Source of the DNA: Cyanobium sp. PCC 7001
GTDB taxonomy: Bacteria > Cyanobacteriota > Cyanobacteriia > PCC-6307 > Cyanobiaceae
Direction of reading: 5' to 3'
Length of the DNA stretch: 64,000 bases
NCBI RefSeq assembly: GCF_000155635.1
Contig: NZ_DS990556.1
Span: 610,416-674,415, forward strand
A model generated the notes under the pieces. That model was not told the DNA's origin, made no database searches, and saw only the letters and a program-made list of their open reading frames with translations. Position 1 is the first letter of the stretch. The number at the start of each line of letters is the position of its first letter. Below are positions 34,840 to 44,199 of the stretch, in pieces. The position numbers and the translations under genes are program-made.

Positions 34840-36153
34840 GTGAGCCTCGATGACGCCAGCCCCCTGAACGCCCGCCAGCAGGCCATCGCCCTGATCGACG
34901 GCAACAACTTCTATGCCTCCTGCGAGGCCGTGATGGATCCATCGCTGCTGGGCCGGCCCCTGGTGGTGCTCTCCAACAACGACGGCTGCATCGTGTCGCG
35001 CAGTGCCGAGGCCCGGCGGCTCGGCATCGCCATGGGCACGCCCTACTTCCAGGTGCAGCGCCAGCTGGAGCGGCTGGGGGTGGAGGTGCGCAGCTCCAAT
35101 TACGCCCTCTACGCCGACATGAGCCAGCGGCTGATGGCCACGCTGGAGCGCTGGGTGGAGGAGCTGGAGATCTATTCGATCGATGAGGCCTTCGGCCTGC
35201 TGAGCCGCCGGCAGGGCGAGGACCTCAGCGGCTGGGGCCTGCAGGTGCGCCAGACGGTGCACCGCGAGCTGGGGCTGCCCGTGGCCGTGGGCCTCGCCTC
35301 CACCAAGGTGCGGGCCAAGCTGGCCAACCGCCTGGCCAAGGCGCAGCCCGCCCACCACCACGTGTTCGACCTGGAGGCCCAGGCCGACCCCACGGCCTGG
35401 CTGCAGCAGGTGCCGATCGAGGACGTGTGGGGCATCGGCCGGCGCCTGGCCCGCTGGTGCCGGTTGCGGGGTGTCGCCGATGCCCGCGCCCTGCGCGACA
35501 TGCCCAGCGGCGAACTGCGTCAGAAGTGCGGCGTGGTGGGCCTGCGGCTGCAGCAGGAGTTGCGCGGCCACCGCTGTCTGCCGCTCACCCTGGTGCCGCC
35601 CCCGAAACAGGAGACCTGCGTGAGCCGCAGTTTCAGCCAGCCGGTGCGCAGCGCCGCCGAGCTGCGCCAGGCGGTGGCCACCTACACGGTGCGGGCCGCC
35701 GAGAAGCTGCGCCGCCAGCGGCAGAGGGCCGGTGCCCTGAGCGTGTTCGTGCGCAGCAACCCGTTCAACGGCACCAGCTTCTACAGCAACAGCGCCACCG
35801 TGACCCTGGCGGTGCCCAGCAACGACACCGCCGTGCTGCTGGCGGCGGCCCTGCCGCTGGCGGAGACGCTGTTCCGCCCCTGCCATCCCCTGCAGAAGGC
35901 CGGCGTGCTGCTGCTGCAGCTGCAGGGGGAGGAGCTGCTGCAACACCATCTGCTGCAGCCCCTGCCACCGGAACAGCAGCAGCGCCGGGCCGCCCTGATG
36001 GCGGTGCTGGACCATCTGAACCGCCGCTACGGCAGCGGCACCGTGCGCTGGGCCGCCTGCGGTCTGCAACCGGTGTGGGCGATGCGGCGGCAGCGGCTCT
36101 CCCATGCCGCCACCACCCGGCTCGCGGCGATTCCCCGGGTGCTGGCCCGCTGA
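34840..36153 (+). CDS. umuC: UmuC, catalytic subunit of translesion DNA polymerase V type
   Basis: UmuC is a Y-family polymerase that copies damaged DNA. The 437-residue protein from GTG 34840 has the metal-binding ALIDGNNFYASCE near 15-28, the LVVLSNNDGCIVSRS finger motif, the catalytic YSIDEAFGLL, helix-hairpin-helix segments around VWGIGRRLARW and a little-finger domain with SRSFSQPV. The length is normal. It shares an SOS-regulated unit with umuD. Confidence 0.93.
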   Translation: MSLDDASPLNARQQAIALIDGNNFYASCEAVMDPSLLGRPLVVLSNNDGCIVSRSAEARRLGIAMGTPYFQVQRQLERLGVEVRSSNYALYADMSQRLMATLERWVEELEIYSIDEAFGLLSRRQGEDLSGWGLQVRQTVHRELGLPVAVGLASTKVRAKLANRLAKAQPAHHHVFDLEAQADPTAWLQQVPIEDVWGIGRRLARWCRLRGVADARALRDMPSGELRQKCGVVGLRLQQELRGHRCLPLTLVPPPKQETCVSRSFSQPVRSAAELRQAVATYTVRAAEKLRRQRQRAGALSVFVRSNPFNGTSFYSNSATVTLAVPSNDTAVLLAAALPLAETLFRPCHPLQKAGVLLLQLQGEELLQHHLLQPLPPEQQQRRAALMAVLDHLNRRYGSGTVRWAACGLQPVWAMRRQRLSHAATTRLAAIPRVLAR

Positions 36154-36215
36154 TCGGCCACGCCGGCACCGGCCTCAGGAGTGCTGGAGCAGCTGCAGGG
36201 TGCGCTGGCGGGGGC

Positions 36216-36371
36216 TCACCAGTAGCACCAGCCGCTCGGCGCGGGGCTGGCGCAGGCCCCGGTCCAGTCGCCGGCGTCCGGTGTCACGAGGGCAGGGACG
36301 GCGAGGGCTTCCTTGAGGTCACCCCCATCACCGATGCCGTCGCGGTGCCAGATCACCTGGAAGAACGCCAT
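36216..36371 (-). pseudogene. shortened paralogue of the 39133-39384 gene
   Basis: The frame MAFFQVIWHRDGIGDGGDLK mirrors the N-terminus of the intact 83-residue protein at 39133-39384 (MAFFEVLWHGDGIGDGGDLD). Similarity fades after about 40 residues and the frame ends at 51. In another frame the following bases read LRQPRAERLVLLVSPRQRT, possibly the tail of an unrelated gene, so the paralogue looks truncated by fusion to other sequence. It lies between umuC and the NapH-like gene. Confidence 0.65.
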
Positions 36372-36452
36372 GCGGGACGAACTGCAGGTGGGTGAATGTG
36401 GCTAGCCAGCCTGTGGGGCAGGGCGCCGGGGCGCCGTGTCAGGGCGCTCCGT

Positions 36453-37784
36453 TCAGGGCTGCGGCGAGCGCGCCATCTCGCGCAGAGCGATCTGATGGCG
36501 GCTGGCCTCCTCGCGGTACAGCTCCTCCGAGCGCGGCCACGTGCGCATGAGCCAAACGGAACTCAGACAGCCCAGGGCCACCGCTGCGTAGGTAGGCAGG
36601 GGCACGGGGAGAAGATGCAGAACGTTGTGGCCGGAAAAAATAAAGTAGAAGTTGAAGATCAGAAAGGTCGTCACGGAGAGCATGCGATGACGCACGGTCT
36701 CCCGAGTCAGCGTGGAGCCTCTGCGCAGGAGATTGGCATGGATCACACGTTCCAGAGTGAAGCCCAGCAGACAGGCCGCGACAACACCGACTCCCAGGGT
36801 GAGTGGCACCGCCAGCAGTTTCGGAATCGGCAGGGCACTCCCCATCATGTAGAACCCGGGAGACAGCAAGTGATCAAGCTGGCCGGGCTCATGGGCCCAG
36901 ATTCCAGACAAGTAATACCACCAGTTGCCCGCATAAAATAAATAGAAAAAGAAATAGGAGATCACCAGGCCAGCATAGCCATAATACAAAACACCCTTGC
37001 TGCGGGTCATCAGATTCCGCCAGTAGTGCTTTTCAGAATCGATATCGATGCACGTGGAGGCGCAGCCCACGCAAGTGCTTGCCTCCAGACCCGGATCTCC
37101 CTCCTCGCTGCGACACATGGACTGCGTGGCCCTGATCCGGGGAGTGGCCTTGAGATGAGCAGGGTTGGAGAGGAGGCCTCGGGGACCGCTGTAGAACTCC
37201 TCCACAGGGGAAACAGGGCAGAAATATTGACACCAGGATTTGCCGTCATAGACAAAGCCGACAATGACGGCAGCCGTGATGAAGAACAGGAAAAACAGAA
37301 ACAGTGCTGTGCGCTCCGAGTTCACGAACAGGATCCGGCAGCACAGTGCCACATACAACGTGACAAGCTGCAGATAGGTGTGATGGCGCTCCAGAAAGCT
37401 GTTCCGTGCAACCTTCTGGGGCGCGGGCAATGGAAGCCAGGAGACCCTGCGCCGCCCGATCCGACCCAACTGGGAGAAGAACGACAACGGACAGATCCTT
37501 CGCCACAGTTCATGGCCGAACAGGAACACCACGGCCACCAGCAAGGGCAGGAGCAGTCCCCAGAAGAGTGGAGCCCCAAGGGGGTACTGCAACGACTCCA
37601 CGATCTGGCCCTGAACCATCACCCGGTTGCCGCCGCTGCCCTCGAGGCGGGTGAGAAGCCCGTCCGGAGTCGTCAGGACCGGGGTGAACGGGTCATACAG
37701 CAGGCTGACGAGAATGACAGCCCAGAAGGTCGCCAGGCCGAGGCGAACCCTGCGGGCGACCCGTTCAGCGAGCACATAAGCCAT
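36453..37784 (-). CDS. NapH/NosR-type polyferredoxin-like membrane protein
   Basis: The 443-residue protein has about eight hydrophobic segments and the cysteine motifs of the NapH/NosR/RdxA group: RRICPLSFFSQLGRIGRR near residue 96, WCQYFCPVSPVEEFY near 183 and STCVGCASTCIDID near 236. Such proteins move electrons between the quinone pool and iron-sulfur partners. Nitrate or nitrous oxide reductase genes are not nearby, so its partner is unknown. Base composition at its 5' end is lower in G+C than the neighbours, suggesting possible acquisition. The long upstream gap carries direct repeats. Confidence 0.75.
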   Translation of the reverse strand: MAYVLAERVARRVRLGLATFWAVILVSLLYDPFTPVLTTPDGLLTRLEGSGGNRVMVQGQIVESLQYPLGAPLFWGLLLPLLVAVVFLFGHELWRRICPLSFFSQLGRIGRRRVSWLPLPAPQKVARNSFLERHHTYLQLVTLYVALCCRILFVNSERTALFLFFLFFITAAVIVGFVYDGKSWCQYFCPVSPVEEFYSGPRGLLSNPAHLKATPRIRATQSMCRSEEGDPGLEASTCVGCASTCIDIDSEKHYWRNLMTRSKGVLYYGYAGLVISYFFFYLFYAGNWWYYLSGIWAHEPGQLDHLLSPGFYMMGSALPIPKLLAVPLTLGVGVVAACLLGFTLERVIHANLLRRGSTLTRETVRHRMLSVTTFLIFNFYFIFSGHNVLHLLPVPLPTYAAVALGCLSSVWLMRTWPRSEELYREEASRHQIALREMARSPQP

Positions 37785-38581
37785 GACGAAACCAACAAAG
37801 TGCGCGTGACCTCAGACCAACCAGGCGAAAGGAATGCTTGCGCTGGCTGGACCTGATGAGAAAAGTGTGTGACTGACTACGTTTTGGGAAGACTGTGTTT
37901 CCGGAAAGACTGTGTCGGACCGCAAAGGTGGGACAGCAAAGGGGGCCGCAAAGGTCAGCCCGCATAGGCCCGGACAGTAAAATCCAGGCAATTAAGTCTC
38001 CTCACAGTAGTCCCATGACCCATCTTGGGAACACTTCCCGCAATCAGATCTGCTTATTGAGCAACAATCACCAGCTGCACAAGGATTCATGTGTCCACCA
38101 CTACTGTCTTGACCATGGGTCCCGCCGAATGGCACTGACAGTGATGGCCCCGGCAAGGAATCAGTTGTGATCCAGGGCACTTCTCTCTGGTCATGAGGAA
38201 CACGGGCCTACCGCATGCTGGGCATCCAGCGCATCACAGGCCTCACGCTTCGATGATCCTGAGAGGATTCCGAACGGGGTCTGCGGTGATCCCGAAACGA
38301 CCAGGAACGCTGCCCAGGTGCGGGCAGCAGGTGCCGGCCGTTCAGTTCACCGTGTCGGTTCTGGGATGGACCCGAACTGGAGGTGGGAACGCACAGGGCT
38401 CGAGGCAGCCGCCGAGGGCGCCTCACAGAACCGCTCGGGAGGATCCACGAAGGCGGCACTGCCGAGCCACGGTCGAGCTCCTGTGAAGCCCCTACGGGTC
38501 ACTGCCCCAGTGCCCACCGCGGTGTCACCGCGCCGCCCCCGCCGTGCCGGCTCCTGGGCCGAGTCGGCCATCCCGATCGGG
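37785..38581. other. long intergenic stretch with direct repeats
   Basis: No gene is visible in this 797-base stretch, which begins lower in G+C than the backbone. Two pairs of exact direct repeats lie upstream of the NapH-type gene: AAGACTGTGT at 37889-37898 and 37906-37915 (17-base period) and CCGCAAAGGT at 37920-37929 and 37946-37955 (26-base period). They may be regulator sites for that gene. The part beyond 38160 shows only short random frames and leads into gene debris. Confidence 0.45.
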
Positions 38582-38960
38582 TCAGATCCCCTGATCCCGC
38601 CAGGGAGCGCTGTTGAAGCGGCGCCCGCCCAGTGAGGGCTGATGGCCAAGGGTGTTGTTGGTCGAGAGGCTCACCACAGCACCGAGTCGGCCAGCGAGCT
38701 TGACGCAGCCTTGGGATGTCTGTGGGGTGTAGCACTGCACCTCCAGCTGATTGCAACCTCGCTTCGGAATCAAGCCAACCTGGAAGGGTTGAATCCTGCA
38801 CAAGATGGGCTTGGTATCGATCTGACGGAGCCCATGGAAATCGGCCAGGCTGTAGTTGACTAAGCAATGATCATCCACCTGGATGCCGTCACCATGGCCA
38901 TGGCGCGCCTTGTGCACCAGATCGCTGATGCGCATCGCCAGGTACTGAGGTGACTGGACC
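38582..38960 (-). pseudogene. truncated copy of the TIM-barrel-like secreted protein gene
   Basis: The frame WVQSPQYLAMRISDLVHKAR, then DGIQVDDHCLVNYSLADF, IQPFQVGLIPKRGCNQLEVQ and GAVVSLSTNNTLG is a clear homologue of the C-terminal 60% of the protein at 41257-41970. The signal peptide and first 85 or so residues are missing; similarity stops abruptly near 38960, where unrelated sequence begins. The intact relative lies only 2.7 kb away, so this is a local duplicate or a remnant of a tandem pair. Confidence 0.8.
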
Positions 38961-39059
38961 CACTGCCGCAGGCGCGGCCAGCGCGAGGGCCAGGACCAGA
39001 GGGGTGGAGAAGGCGGGATCAGCCGGCAGCGTGAAGAGCGGCCCGCTGCCGGCCTGCCT

Positions 39060-39132
39060 GTTCCTCGCCTCCAGCCGGCCGGCGCCGAGGTTGTGCTCCT
39101 CCAGGGCACTGATCGCGGCCCAGAGCTGGCGG
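39060..39132 (-). pseudogene. 73-bp fragment of dnaG
   Basis: About 73 bases here match an internal segment of the intact dnaG near 42591-42663 with few differences (for example GAGGTTGTGCTCCTCCAGGG against GAGGTTGTCCTCCTCCAGGG, then CAGAGCTGGCGG in both). It ends precisely where the stop codon of the 39133-39384 gene begins. Together with the TIM-barrel fragment it looks like a collapsed copy of the TIM-barrel-dnaG neighbourhood. Confidence 0.75.
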
Positions 39133-39384
39133 TCAGGGCAGGGCGGCCAGGGCGGCCTCGATCATGCTGGCGCTCACCGGGATCGTCTCCAGCTCGTCGG
39201 CGTTGTCGAGGTAGGCCTCGAAGGAGGCGTAGCGGCGGATGCAGGGCTCGGCGCCGGGGGCGGCGCAGGCCTCGCTCCAGTTGCCGTCATCCGGCTTCAC
39301 CAGGGCATAGGCGGTGAGGGCCTCGTCGAGGTCACCGCCATCGCCGATGCCATCGCCATGCCAGAGCACCTCGAAGAAAGCCAT
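39133..39384 (-). CDS. hypothetical protein, MAFFEV-type
   Basis: The 83-residue protein starts MAFFEVLWHGDGIGDGGDLD, with two cysteines in the middle (EACAAPGAEPCIRRYASFEA) and a helical C-terminus. A truncated paralogue lies at 36216-36371. It has no signal peptide or membrane segment. I do not recognise the family. It sits between a dnaG fragment and the mechanosensitive-channel-like gene. Confidence 0.6.
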   Translation of the reverse strand: MAFFEVLWHGDGIGDGGDLDEALTAYALVKPDDGNWSEACAAPGAEPCIRRYASFEAYLDNADELETIPVSASMIEAALAALP

Positions 39385-39459
39385 AGAGCGTTGCGTTGAA
39401 GGGGCGGGACGACAGATGGCGATTTCAGGCTACCGAGGCTGGGCCGATGGCCAGGGCGC

Positions 39460-41103
39460 CTAGGTCTGCTGGCGCAGGGCATCCCTCCAGGCACGCAACT
39501 GCTCGGCCGCCACGTCGCGGCCCCCCACCCCGAAGGCGACGGCGGCCGCCACGGCGATCGAGCCCAGCACCAGCCCGAAGGCCAGGGTGACGATGGAAGG
39601 AGCAACCCCGATCTGCTGCAGGGCCATGGCACCGCTGAAGCCCAGGATGGCCACCCGGGCGGCCTGGGCCAGCAGGCCGGCCTGCACCGTCTGGGAGCTC
39701 ACGATCAGGCGGGCCGCCAGGTTGGCGATCGCGAGGCCGAAGGCGAACACGATCACACCGGCGAGGATCCGGCCGAACACCAGCAGCAGCCCACTCACGA
39801 TCTCGGTGATGGCGGGAAGGTTGAGCACATTGGCGGCTGCCACGGCGCCGAACAGCACCACTGCGCCCAGCACGGCGACGCCCACCACCTCGGAGGGCCG
39901 CCGCGGGGCCGGGACCTCGATCTCAGGGCCGGCCTGCTCGTCGCCCCGCTCGGAAATCTGCTCGGAAACCTGGTCGGATGCCTGCGCGGAAGCCTGCGCC
40001 TCCCCGTCCTCCACCAGACCCAGCTGCTGCACCCAGTGATCGAAGCCGAATCCGGTGAACAGCCGCACCGCGAGCTGCTCGAGGAACTGCCCCAGCACTA
40101 CGGCCAGGGCCAGGATGGCCGCTGCCGTGAACACCTGGGGGAGGGCGCCGAGCACCGTGCTGAGCATGGCGATGGCCGGGCCGGCGATGGCCGGCATGGC
40201 CAGGGCCTCCAGGGCGGCGATCGCCGTGGGGATCAGCACGAGCACATAGCTCACGGTGCCGGCCAGGCCTGAGAGCGACTGGCCGGGCTGCTGTGGATCG
40301 AGCCCCATGCCTTCGCCCAGCTGATCCACGCCGGTGGACCCGAGCAGGTTGCGCACCAGGGTGCGGACGGTGCGGGCCAGCAGCCATCCCACCACCGCGA
40401 TGGTGGCCGCCTTGGCGAGCAGCGGCACCGCGGCCATGAAGGTGTTGAGCAGGTTGAGCAGCGGCAGAAGCTGGTTGCCGAGATTCAGCGCGTTGAGAAC
40501 CAGCGGCAGGAAGAACAGAAGGATCAGCCAGTACAGGAGGTTGGCGAGGGTCTGACTCGACAGCAGTCCCGGCGCGGTCGGATCGGAGTCGTCCTCCTCC
40601 TCGGGAGAGAACAGGCGCTCATCCAGCTGAAGCTGCTGGGCGGTCTGCAGCAGCACCGCCCGCGCCAGGCTGGCCACCATCCAGCCCAGGGCAGCCAGCA
40701 GACCCGCTGCCCCCAGCTGCGGCAGGAAGGAGAAAATCTGGGAGAGGAAGTCGTTGAGCGGTTCCGAAACGGTGGTGAGGTTGAGGGCGTTGAGGGCTGC
40801 CACCAGCGCCAGCACCAGCACCACCCAGAACACCAGTGCAGCCAGCAGCCGATCGAGCCGCAGGTTGCGCTGACCCGGACGTTCCGGGTCCCGGATGGCA
40901 TGGGCGACGCGCTCATCCAGCTGGGTGCGGCGCAGCAGGCTGCGGACGCTTCTGGCCGCAAGCCCGGCCACCAGCCAGCCCACCAGCAGGATGGCCAGCG
41001 CCCCCAGCAGGTTGACCACCAGCGGCATCAGCGTGGGGGAAAGCACGTCCACGGGCATTGCGGCCAGTGGCGGCGGCTGAACAGGAAGGTTGGCAACAAC
41101 CAT
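39460..41103 (-). CDS. mechanosensitive ion channel-like membrane protein (TM-helix repeat type)
   Basis: The 547-residue protein (ATG at 41103; a GTG 36 bases upstream is possible) is built from repeated units, each a pair of membrane helices followed by an amphipathic stretch with VGWLLARTVRTLVRNLL or GWLVAGLAARSVRSLLRRT. This is the conserved TM-helix repeat found in CmpX-like proteins related to MscS. About ten hydrophobic segments are visible, with an acidic low-complexity loop near 375-400. A classical MscS beta domain is not seen. A role in osmotic or membrane stress is inferred from family. Confidence 0.8.
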   Translation of the reverse strand: MVVANLPVQPPPLAAMPVDVLSPTLMPLVVNLLGALAILLVGWLVAGLAARSVRSLLRRTQLDERVAHAIRDPERPGQRNLRLDRLLAALVFWVVLVLALVAALNALNLTTVSEPLNDFLSQIFSFLPQLGAAGLLAALGWMVASLARAVLLQTAQQLQLDERLFSPEEEDDSDPTAPGLLSSQTLANLLYWLILLFFLPLVLNALNLGNQLLPLLNLLNTFMAAVPLLAKAATIAVVGWLLARTVRTLVRNLLGSTGVDQLGEGMGLDPQQPGQSLSGLAGTVSYVLVLIPTAIAALEALAMPAIAGPAIAMLSTVLGALPQVFTAAAILALAVVLGQFLEQLAVRLFTGFGFDHWVQQLGLVEDGEAQASAQASDQVSEQISERGDEQAGPEIEVPAPRRPSEVVGVAVLGAVVLFGAVAAANVLNLPAITEIVSGLLLVFGRILAGVIVFAFGLAIANLAARLIVSSQTVQAGLLAQAARVAILGFSGAMALQQIGVAPSIVTLAFGLVLGSIAVAAAVAFGVGGRDVAAEQLRAWRDALRQQT

Positions 41104-41256
41104 CGACACCTCGTCGGGACTCGCTTTCAACCTGACCACCAGGGCAGGTGGAGACCATGAAGGAGTTAGAAAGAAACACGCGCCGCGTCATCTGCACTGC
41201 GGCCTCTGCTCTGGAGCTCAGCGCTTGGCTCAAGGCTGGGGCTCGGGGCTGGGAGA

Positions 41257-41970
41257 TCAGCGCTGGGTCTGGAATGCGGCGGCCCTGGGCTGCACATCCG
41301 GCCAGAGGAAGGTGTTGAACTGCCGCGCGCCGAGGCTGCTGCGCTGCCCCAGGGTGTTGGCGGTGGAGAGACTCACCACCGCGCCCAGCCGATCCGCCAG
41401 CTTCAGACATTGGCTGAAGGTCTGGGATGTGTAGCACTGCACATCGAGTTGATTGCAGCCTCCCCGGGGCACGAGAGCCGCCTGGAAGGGCTGGATGCTG
41501 CAGAAGATCGGCTTGGTGTAGAGCTGACGCAACCGGTAGAAGGCCGCCAGGCTGTAGTTGGCGAAGAAGTGGTCATCCACCTGGATGCCATCGGCATGGC
41601 GGGCCTCATGGATGAGGTCGGTCACGCTCATCGCGCGGTACTGGGGGGATTGCACCCACACCACGGGAATCAGCCCCTGGGCTCGCGCCTCCTTCGCCAC
41701 CTGTTTCTGTACGGCGTCATCGACGTTGCGGTAGTCGAGGAAGACCACCCGGTAGCGGTTGGCCCGGATCTGGGCCATCAGCTGGGGCACGGCCTGCCTG
41801 GAGTTGTAGAACCAGATCTGGGGCTTGGAGAGCCAGGTGCCATTGGGGGTGGCGCCCGCCGCCTTCGGTGCGAGCGCCAGGGTCGCCAGAACGGTGAGGG
41901 CCGCGATGCTCCTCAGGCCGGTGGGCATCCCGGACGACGGCGGGGTCAGGGGAAGGCGTCGCACGAACAT
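41257..41970 (-). CDS. secreted TIM-barrel-like protein of unknown function
   Basis: I chose the ATG at 41970, giving a signal peptide (core SIAALTVLATLALAP, cut after KAAGA). The 237-residue product continues with KPQIWFYNSRQAVPQLMAQI, VVFLDYRNVDDAVQK, IPVVWVQSPQYRAM and DGIQVDDHFFANYS, a strand-helix rhythm with acidic strand ends like glycoside-hydrolase-type barrels. The exact family is not recognised. The start overlaps the stop of a 40-residue frame that itself overlaps dnaG, suggesting coupling to dnaG. A truncated copy lies at 38582-38960. Confidence 0.65.
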   Translation of the reverse strand: MFVRRLPLTPPSSGMPTGLRSIAALTVLATLALAPKAAGATPNGTWLSKPQIWFYNSRQAVPQLMAQIRANRYRVVFLDYRNVDDAVQKQVAKEARAQGLIPVVWVQSPQYRAMSVTDLIHEARHADGIQVDDHFFANYSLAAFYRLRQLYTKPIFCSIQPFQAALVPRGGCNQLDVQCYTSQTFSQCLKLADRLGAVVSLSTANTLGQRSSLGARQFNTFLWPDVQPRAAAFQTQR

Positions 41971-42092
41971 CACCAGGTCATGCCGTTCCACTGGACATGC
42001 CCTCGATGGAGCCCGACCTGCGGAACGAACCAGCTGCCACCGTCATAGACCCGATGGGGCCCCGCGGCAGCGGTGCCGTCAGCCGGCCACAT
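41970..42092 (-). CDS. 40-residue small protein bridging dnaG and the secreted protein gene
   Basis: From ATG 42092 the frame gives a 40-residue product with RVYDGGSWFVPQVGLHRGHV and a Trp at the end. Its start overlaps the last bases of dnaG (14 bases) and its stop overlaps the start of the next gene (TGATG). Such chained overlaps are typical of translated small genes. The aromatic, glycine-rich sequence looks non-random, but I know no family. Confidence 0.4.
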   Translation of the reverse strand: MWPADGTAAAGPHRVYDGGSWFVPQVGLHRGHVQWNGMTW

Positions 42093-44199
42093 CGAGCTCC
42101 GGCGGTCGGGCCATCGCGGGCACCAGCTCGGCGAAACCGGCCCGGCGGCGGGCATCCAGCTCCTCGAGGTAGCGGCGCTCGTTGTAGTAAAGCTCCTGAA
42201 AGCGCAGCGCATCGCTGTTGAGCTCGGCGAACAGGCCGTCGATGCGGCTCTCCATGTCACTCACGGGCACCAGTCCGTCGTGGCTTGCCGCCTCCTGGCG
42301 TTCACCCTCCAGCAGGCGGGCGATGCAGCGCTCCAGGGTTTCCAGCCGCTGACTGCTCCAGGCGTCCAGCAGATGGCGGCAGCGTTTGAGGCTGCGCTGC
42401 CGCTCCAGGGAGGCGAGGGCTCCGCGCAGCTGCAGCAGCGGCTGGCCCAGATGCAGCTGCTGCAGCTCGCTCGGCTCGATCAGGGGCGTGAGCCTGGTGA
42501 GCAGCGTGCTCTCCTCCACCAGCAGCTGATCGCTGAGCAGGCGCGGCAGGTCGAGGTCGGCCAGGTCATGGCCGGGGTCGAGGCCGCGGTTCACCGCCTC
42601 CAGCCGACCGGCCCCGAGGTTGTCCTCCTCCAGGGCGCTGATGGCGGCCCAGAGCTGGCGGTGATGGGCGAGGGCGAAGTCCTCCAGGTCATGCCGGCGC
42701 AGCTCCGCCCGGATCGGAGCGCGGTAGGTGCCGCAGTGGAGATAGAGCCGCAGCACCTCGGCCTCGGCCCGTTCCCGCAGCCCCGCCTCGCCGGGCTGTT
42801 CCCACTTCTGGGAGCGGCCGTGCCAGCGCTGCCCCTTCACCTGCTGGCGCAGGTCGTCCTCCAGCTGGATCGCCAGCCGCGCCTGACCGCCGCTGAGCCG
42901 CTCGGCCACCTGCTGCAGGTAGTGACTGCGCACGGCGCTCTGGGGCAGCTTGCCGAGCAGGGCCACCAGGCCGCTCACCGCCTGCTGGAACTGGTCGGAG
43001 CGGGCCAGGTCCTTGCCGGCCAGCACCTGCTCGATCTGCCAGTCGAGCCACTGGGGTGCCTGATCCAGCAGGGCGCGGTAGTCGCCGGCTCCGTGCTGCT
43101 GCAGGAACTCGTCGGGGTCCTTGCCGGCGGGGAGATGCAGCACCCGCAGCTCGAGCTGCCCCTGCAGGGCCTGCTGCTCCACCTCACCGATCGCCCGCTG
43201 GGCGGCCCGAACGCCGGCGCCGTCGCTGTCGAAGTTGAGGATCAGCCGCCGGCTCTCACAGCAGCGGCACAGCTGGGTGATCTGCTGGCTGCTCAGGGCC
43301 GTGCCGAGGGACGCCACCGCGTTGGTGATGCCGGCGGCATGCAGGGCGATCACATCGAAGTAGCCCTCCACCACCACGGCCCGGTCATCGCGGCGGATGG
43401 CGCTGGCGGCCCGGTCGAGCCCGAAGAGGTGCTTCCCCTTCTCGAACACCTCGGTTTCCGGCGAGTTGAGGTATTTGGGCTCGCCGCCGTCCAGGCTGCG
43501 GCCACCGAAGCCGATCACCCGCCCCTGACGGTCCTTGATCGGCACCATGACGCGGCCGCGAAAGCGGTCGTAATAGCCCTGGCTCCCCTCGCCGCCCTGC
43601 CCCTTGCGCGGCACCGCCAGGCCCGCCTCCACCAGCCACTCCGGCCCGATGCCCTCCACCTGTCCCAGGTGATTCAGGAGGCCGTCCCACCGGTCCGGTG
43701 CGAAGCCGAGCTCGAAGGCCTCGATGGTGCCCTCCCCGAGCTTGCGCTGCTCGCGCAGGTAGGCCAGGGCCCCCGCACCCTCGGGGGCGCGCAGCTGGCT
43801 GCGGAACCAGCCCGAGGCCAGGCTCAGCACCCGGTGCAGCTGATCGCGGCGCGAGAGCTGCCGGCGCAGGCGCTCCTGCTGGGGGCCGTCGAGGGTCTCG
43901 ATCGGCAGCTGGTACTTGCGCGCCAGCTCCAGCACCACATCGCTGAAGCTCTGGCGCTGCAGCTCCATCAGGAACTTGATGGCGTTGCCGCCAGCGCCGC
44001 AGGAGAAGCAGTAATAGAACTGCTTGGCCGGTGACACCGTCATCGACGGCGACGTGTCGTCGTGGAAGGGGCAGATGCCGACGAATTCCCGCCCCTTCTT
44101 CTTGAGCACCACGTGCTCGCCCACCACATCCACGATGTCGGCGCGCTCCTTCACGGCCTCGATCGTGCGGGGGTGGAGGCGCGGCAGGCTCAAGGGCAT
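42079..44199 (-). CDS. dnaG: DNA primase
   Basis: DnaG makes RNA primers at the replication fork. The 706-residue protein starts with a CHC2 zinc finger (C43 and H46 in GICPFHDDTSPS, C64 and C67 in YYCFSCGAGG), then the primase core with GFGGRSLDGGEPKYLNSPET and a TOPRIM domain (VVVEGYFDVIALH, LNFDSDGAG), and ends with a C-terminal helicase-binding region. It is full length. A short internal segment is duplicated at 39060-39132. Confidence 0.95.
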   Translation of the reverse strand: MPLSLPRLHPRTIEAVKERADIVDVVGEHVVLKKKGREFVGICPFHDDTSPSMTVSPAKQFYYCFSCGAGGNAIKFLMELQRQSFSDVVLELARKYQLPIETLDGPQQERLRRQLSRRDQLHRVLSLASGWFRSQLRAPEGAGALAYLREQRKLGEGTIEAFELGFAPDRWDGLLNHLGQVEGIGPEWLVEAGLAVPRKGQGGEGSQGYYDRFRGRVMVPIKDRQGRVIGFGGRSLDGGEPKYLNSPETEVFEKGKHLFGLDRAASAIRRDDRAVVVEGYFDVIALHAAGITNAVASLGTALSSQQITQLCRCCESRRLILNFDSDGAGVRAAQRAIGEVEQQALQGQLELRVLHLPAGKDPDEFLQQHGAGDYRALLDQAPQWLDWQIEQVLAGKDLARSDQFQQAVSGLVALLGKLPQSAVRSHYLQQVAERLSGGQARLAIQLEDDLRQQVKGQRWHGRSQKWEQPGEAGLRERAEAEVLRLYLHCGTYRAPIRAELRRHDLEDFALAHHRQLWAAISALEEDNLGAGRLEAVNRGLDPGHDLADLDLPRLLSDQLLVEESTLLTRLTPLIEPSELQQLHLGQPLLQLRGALASLERQRSLKRCRHLLDAWSSQRLETLERCIARLLEGERQEAASHDGLVPVSDMESRIDGLFAELNSDALRFQELYYNERRYLEELDARRRAGFAELVPAMARPPELDVAG

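Follow-up and report, generated by a model that had tools for sequence, protein, structure and literature searches.

The strip of gene remains that lies between small and umuC in Cyanobium sp. PCC 7001 is very probably a decayed second copy of the dnaG-umuC interval. It spans positions 36178-39132 of the window, the 64-kb stretch analysed here out of a 2.83-Mb genome. An intact run of genes on the minus strand, dnaG - TIM - mscS - small (83 aa), is followed on the same strand by relics in the order dnaG' - TIM' - small' - small2', and then by a convergent umuC. The relics are colinear with the intact unit, adjoin it and share its orientation, as a tandem duplication would leave them. The content of the strip is a 3' part of dnaG, TIM', the intact gene memb, small' and small2', cut up by deletions; judged by their sequences, TIM', small' and dnaG' look like pseudogene remains. 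Only the dnaG and TIM-barrel shards appeared in the preliminary description, and small' and small2' are added here. Since four relics are colinear and the whole strip is absent from G011, the closest genome compared, the second-copy reading is firmer than it was from two shards. The locus is confirmed as an ordinary genomic scar that retains more than the preliminary description listed. The features are, in window coordinates:

34840..36153, plus strand: umuC (DNA polymerase V subunit), an open reading frame which we take to be this gene from its sequence; convergent flank, syntenic with G011 and eight other loci of the genus
36178..36243, minus strand: small2', remnant coding for the final 22 aa of a 98-aa product; 82% identical over 61 bp to G005 (blastn)
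36242..36371, minus strand: small', the first ~45 codons of an 83-aa gene; 81% nucleotide identity
36372..36452, no strand: spacer upstream of small', similar to the spacers between mscS and small in G011 and in PCC 7001 itself
36453..37784, minus strand: memb, intact gene of a 443-aa membrane 4Fe-4S protein (Pfam Fer4_5)
37785..38581, no strand: stretch without recognisable relatives in seven genomes and the compared loci, where there were short weak matches only
38582..38963, minus strand: TIM', a second TIM-barrel gene of which the decayed 3' half is left, in an open frame
39060..39132, minus strand: dnaG', codons ~513-537 of dnaG; 91% identical over 74 bases
39132..39133, no strand: new joint between the stop codon of small and dnaG interior; alignments to G011 are interrupted at this point
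39133..39384, minus strand: small, intact 83-aa gene, with its 3' end as in G011 and G004
39460..41139, minus strand: mscS-type channel gene, intact (NCBIfam NF033912, E 6.6e-94)
41257..41991, minus strand: TIM, intact TIM-barrel gene (244 aa), named from its predicted fold
42079..44199, minus strand: dnaG (primase), intact (TIGR01391, E 1.1e-135)

No tRNA was found in a scan of the whole window, and zero RNA families were found by Rfam in 36100-41300. Between 37700 and 39500 there was no promoter-like site, and one terminator-like site was found against 0.9 expected from shuffles.

The truncated TIM-barrel gene and the 73 bases of dnaG were found where the preliminary description had placed them, in the same order and orientation as the intact pair. 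In searches within the genome, dnaG' matched dnaG with an E-value of 1.8e-22, which speaks against a chance origin of the 73-base match, the outcome that had been named as fatal to the earlier proposal. The piece of about 24 codons lies directly behind the stop codon of small, the place in which a one-sided displacement would leave it, and is separated from TIM' by about 96 bases without clear relatives. At the single joint 39132/39133, the interior of an older dnaG (codon ~513) is thus fused just behind the stop codon of small. This one joint accounts for the layout, and either a tandem duplication or a one-sided recombination would make such a joint. Along dnaG, the identity between PCC 7001 and G011, the one close relative compared, showed no clear step marking a homologous end.

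The TIM-like part of TIM' (38594-38963) is 72% identical to the intact TIM gene (E 3.7e-47, search within the genome) and is open over 127 codons, within a longer open frame. It starts at codon 112 of the intact gene, and with the missing codons 1-111 it lacks two complete strands and the greater part of another, out of eight in the predicted barrel. TIM' also carries a 6-nt insertion and deviates at 11 columns that are invariant in nine other aligned members. The AlphaFold2 model of the intact TIM protein (mean pLDDT 84) has eight strands alternating with helices. A Foldseek search with this model gave PgaB as the best match (TM-score 0.51) with several PDB barrels behind it at TM-scores of about 0.5, and the TIM-barrel label for the predicted fold is fair. 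No family was found for this protein in Pfam or NCBIfam; it is putatively secreted, by the look of its N-terminus. The family to which it belongs, for which there is no Pfam or NCBIfam model, has a patchy distribution that reaches from Cyanobium to Microcystis within the cyanobacteria. All 20 TIM rows compared have the motif QVDDHFF unchanged, although most of them had been retrieved with two patterns, this motif being one.

The small' relic shares 81% nucleotide identity with small over the initial 130 nt of that gene, and its protein match to small is 67% over 45 aa (E 6.1e-15). It breaks off at codon 45, where a deletion fused it to small2', the end of a gene that is found whole just behind small in three of 13 genomes of the genus (G005, G006 and G007), with umuC on its other side in G005 and G006. 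Taken alone, the protein match of small2' is weak (73% over 22 aa, E 0.02, genome search), and other small2 matches in the genus are weak as well (E 0.003 or worse). The relic is nevertheless convincing, because it stands beside umuC and small'. That the matches throughout the strip are due to chance is hardly credible: the weak small2' piece could be read so, but the E-values refute this reading for TIM', dnaG' and small'. The intact small has no match in Pfam or NCBIfam, and relatives of it occur in 87 of 201 family genomes, PCC 7001 included. It had been suggested that the new junction reshaped the 3' end of this gene. However, small aligns over all 83 aa in five relatives of the genus, and its stop lies at the same codon in PCC 7001, G011 and G004; the frame continues past aa 83 in G005, G006 and G012. 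Judged against G011 and G004, the new joint thus left the 3' end of small as it was.

The genomic neighborhoods of the relatives show what is peculiar to PCC 7001. In G011 the order is umuC - small - mscS - TIM - dnaG without the strip, and only 81 bp lie between the stops of umuC and small. No relative was found to keep a full duplicate, for which the preliminary description had advised a search: G011 has the intact run only, and among 13 genus and 400 family genomes two TIM matches were found in PCC 7001 only. TIM matches are present in nine of the 13 genus genomes, and TIM adjoins dnaG only in PCC 7001 and G011 among the loci read, which included 20 of 33 named loci. Since small follows dnaG within about 0.5 kb in seven loci of the genus (G002, G003, G005, G006, G008, G009 and G012), TIM-mscS is regarded as cargo of the pair PCC 7001 and G011. 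Other cargo is carried in the dnaG-umuC interval by G003 and G004. In G003, small and umuC are separated by a gene for a 918-aa patatin-like phospholipase (L107:11899-14655); among the genus loci read, this is the only genome besides PCC 7001 with comparable room there. About 38 kb of extra genes split small from dnaG in G004 (L160/L161), and they include P-type ATPase, HNH nuclease and type I restriction-modification genes (17 of the 23 open frames of at least 200 aa were scanned).

One intact gene, memb, lies between TIM' and small', where an mscS' relic would be expected. Its match to Pfam Fer4_5 (E 1e-4) is just above the family cut-off. The best relatives of memb are 50-55% identical and were found in three other genomes of 400 (E ≤ 1e-120), and matches at E ≤ 0.001 were present in 68 of 201 genomes, PCC 7001 included. 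The three closest relatives are in open frames of 491-590 codons, and the frames of the next-best listed span 826-1071 codons. Plasmids were searched with memb as well, which gave 36 records, with relatives all below 60% identity, one of which is annotated with a cyclic-nucleotide-binding domain. When an mscS relic was sought in the strip, the best match had an E-value of 0.015 and covered 29 bp inside memb. The spacer between memb and small' was also tried as a candidate for the end of mscS and was rejected, as 11-27% of decoys were equal or better in seven of eight comparisons and 76% in the eighth. The 797-bp stretch at 37785-38581 had no informative relative in a search of seven genomes. 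Since an mscS' that was deleted would leave no trace either, its absence lowers the duplication reading without eliminating it.

The spacer between memb and small' was compared with the one between mscS and small. For the stretch of it next to small', only one of 3334 decoys was as good against the mscS-small spacer of G011, and the comparison with that of PCC 7001 was less clear (142 of 3329). With the whole spacer, 7 of 3334 decoys (G011) and 11 of 3329 (PCC 7001) were as good. In a test against shuffles, none of 500 was as good for either genome. For six other genomes of the genus, comparison with the region that precedes small was indistinguishable from shuffles.

The age of the relics was estimated at the sites that differ between PCC 7001 and G011. 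At 55 such sites, TIM' has the PCC 7001 state at 20, the G011 state at 20 and neither at 15. The 14 sites of small' are divided seven to seven, and dnaG' sides once with PCC 7001, twice with G011 and once with neither. The overall identities are likewise balanced, with 66/73, 67/73 and 66/73 for dnaG' to PCC 7001, G011 and G007, respectively, and 105/130 for small' to both PCC 7001 and G011. Since the relics side with neither genome, they separated from their intact counterparts no later than about the time at which PCC 7001 and G011 split.

TIM' looks older than the other relics. Third-position mismatch between TIM' and TIM of PCC 7001 is 50%, compared to 34% between the PCC 7001 and G011 genes, whereas the corresponding values are 23% and 26% for small' and 17% and 17% for dnaG'. 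Relative to the divergence between PCC 7001 and G011, TIM' exceeds small' and dnaG' combined, with a log ratio of 0.71 (95% 0.03 to 1.34) that was at or below 0 in 2.1% of bootstraps. Stem sites, at which PCC 7001 and G011 agree with each other but not with the outgroups, number 14 for TIM by a loose rule and five by a strict rule. At the 14 loose-rule sites, TIM' never has the shared state; it follows the outgroups at 11 and neither side at three. By contrast, small' has the shared state at five of nine sites (loose) and two of four (strict). The small' relic groups with the PCC 7001 and G011 genes at support 94/94, and its sister grouping with PCC 7001 is not rejected (p 0.275).

The placement of TIM' differs between trees. 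The DNA tree places it outside the TIM pair of PCC 7001 and G011, and in the protein tree it is a long branch beside G111, CS-1328 and BSA11S, not in the GFB01 group. The DNA data reject a sister grouping of TIM' with PCC 7001 (AU p 0.003), whereas the protein data do not (p 0.147); a clade of TIM', PCC 7001 and G011 is rejected by neither (p 0.19 and 0.085, respectively). By identity, TIM' is nearest to a genus mate, Synechococcus sp. GFB01 (272/357 nt, compared to 254/357 to PCC 7001). The sites favoring GFB01 over PCC 7001 number 37 against 19 (sign test p 0.022), which is one of eight comparisons; the other seven gave p 0.09 or higher, one of them, with G004, in the opposite direction. The evidence for an older TIM' is moderate, the sequences being short and third-position G+C differing between the TIM rows. 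As to an age of the two TIM copies beyond that of the species group, which had been named as counting against the duplication first proposed, TIM' dates from about the PCC 7001/G011 split or before and looks older, but its clade with the two intact genes is not rejected. The age of the strip and its mosaic look make a simple local duplication doubtful without refuting it.

We propose that a resident gene set was displaced by a relative's version, through recombination that was homologous at dnaG and illegitimate behind the stop codon of small, and we give this account about an even chance of being right. The resident set would have been dnaG - TIM' - memb - small - small2 - umuC, and the incoming DNA, from a close relative, would have carried dnaG - TIM - mscS - small. 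On one side it would have recombined by homology in or beyond dnaG; its other end, just behind the stop of small, would have been joined illegitimately inside the resident dnaG at codon ~513. Once pushed aside, TIM', small, small2 and the remaining end of the resident dnaG would have decayed, while memb, not being duplicated, would have stayed intact. PMC3240628 describes homology-facilitated illegitimate recombination as an event with one homologous and one illegitimate end and gives its frequency in E. coli as 3e-10 per recipient. The displacement is mildly favored over a tandem duplication because TIM' falls outside the PCC 7001 and G011 pair and mscS' is missing, and it fits slightly better than a tandem duplication of the PCC 7001 locus. 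In its support, TIM' looks like a different, older allele, memb stands in the place of mscS', and no separate loss in G011 is needed. Against it, the spacer near small' resembles the mscS-small spacer, which fits a former mscS neighbor. Against it also stand the lack of a clear identity step in dnaG, the different places of TIM' in the DNA and protein trees, and the rarity of the mechanism where measured. The predicted resident run dnaG-TIM'-memb-small was not found among 400 family genomes, where the best relative of TIM' was 73% identical, nor was the displaced set found there as an intact allele. Since the displaced set was not found intact, we describe the locus as working like a one-sided displacement and do not file it as a proven case.

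The main competing explanation is that dnaG(3')-TIM-mscS-small was duplicated in tandem in the ancestor of PCC 7001 and G011 and that the copy on the umuC side decayed in PCC 7001. This is a serious contender that falls somewhat short of an even chance. It agrees with the colinearity of the relics, with the nearly equal distances of small' and dnaG' from PCC 7001 and G011, with the clade of TIM' and the two intact genes that neither DNA nor protein data reject, and with the spacer upstream of small'. It also requires that G011 separately lost the copy altogether, that mscS' was deleted and that memb was inserted, and it is opposed by the stem sites (none of 14 in TIM' and five of nine in small'), by the excess third-position divergence of TIM' and by the lack of an mscS trace in the strip. 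Hence, of the old tandem duplication followed by deletions that the preliminary description had put forward, an old, decayed second copy stands with its four colinear relics, while the tandem origin is not established. A tandem duplication in the PCC 7001 lineage after the split from G011 is improbable. It would explain why only this genome has two TIM matches and why G011 is without the strip, but a young copy should match its own genome, and neither TIM' nor small' does so in preference to G011. The rejection of the TIM' and PCC 7001 pairing in the DNA tree also opposes it, although the protein tree and the small' tree, in which such a pairing is not rejected, limit this evidence. Still less probable is a separate arrival of the relics, with memb and TIM' as a foreign insert and the dnaG and small pieces by other events. 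A memb homologue does lie within about 4 kb of TIM in two other genomes, G009 and G005, but these are just two of the 20 TIM loci whose retrieved flanks were scanned (33 named), the homologues are about 45% identical, and the four relics keep the order of one locus.

In a decayed tandem duplication, the second copy keeps order and orientation, its genes are truncated and there is one novel joint. The strip is like this in all these respects; unlike it, TIM' looks older than the other relics and an unrelated intact gene, memb, occupies the place of mscS'. No literature was found on Cyanobium pseudogenes from tandem duplication, and among the titles listed on homology-facilitated illegitimate recombination and on Cyanobium or Synechococcus transformation, none concerned the dnaG-umuC locus. 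The displacement account has a parallel in the orphan immunity-gene arrays of the V. cholerae T6SS, where a new module is likewise inserted behind a conserved upstream anchor, and the 3' end of the old gene and its downstream genes are shifted back in order. A mechanism akin to homology-facilitated illegitimate recombination, rare where measured, is proposed there (PMC5361080). Unlike in those arrays, the anchor here is dnaG and the cargo is no effector-immunity pair, and the displacement is deduced from one genome, with no donor or intermediate found.

The strip is a readable scar of gene-content turnover next to an essential gene of a cyanobacterium with a small genome, and it records either a duplication or one gene set pushed aside by that of a relative. 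If the displacement is right, the mechanism proposed for effector-immunity arrays works on ordinary cargo genes too, and the order of the relics makes the direction of exchange testable as genomes accumulate. Of interest is dnaG as a possible anchor for cassette exchange. We suggest only tentatively that this picocyanobacterial genus exchanges cassettes between dnaG and umuC, with dnaG as the anchor. If so, whole alternative gene sets would be swapped by one-sided recombination, and the displaced sets would be left as ordered, decaying 'fossil' cassettes in which a useful gene that is not duplicated, such as memb, survives.
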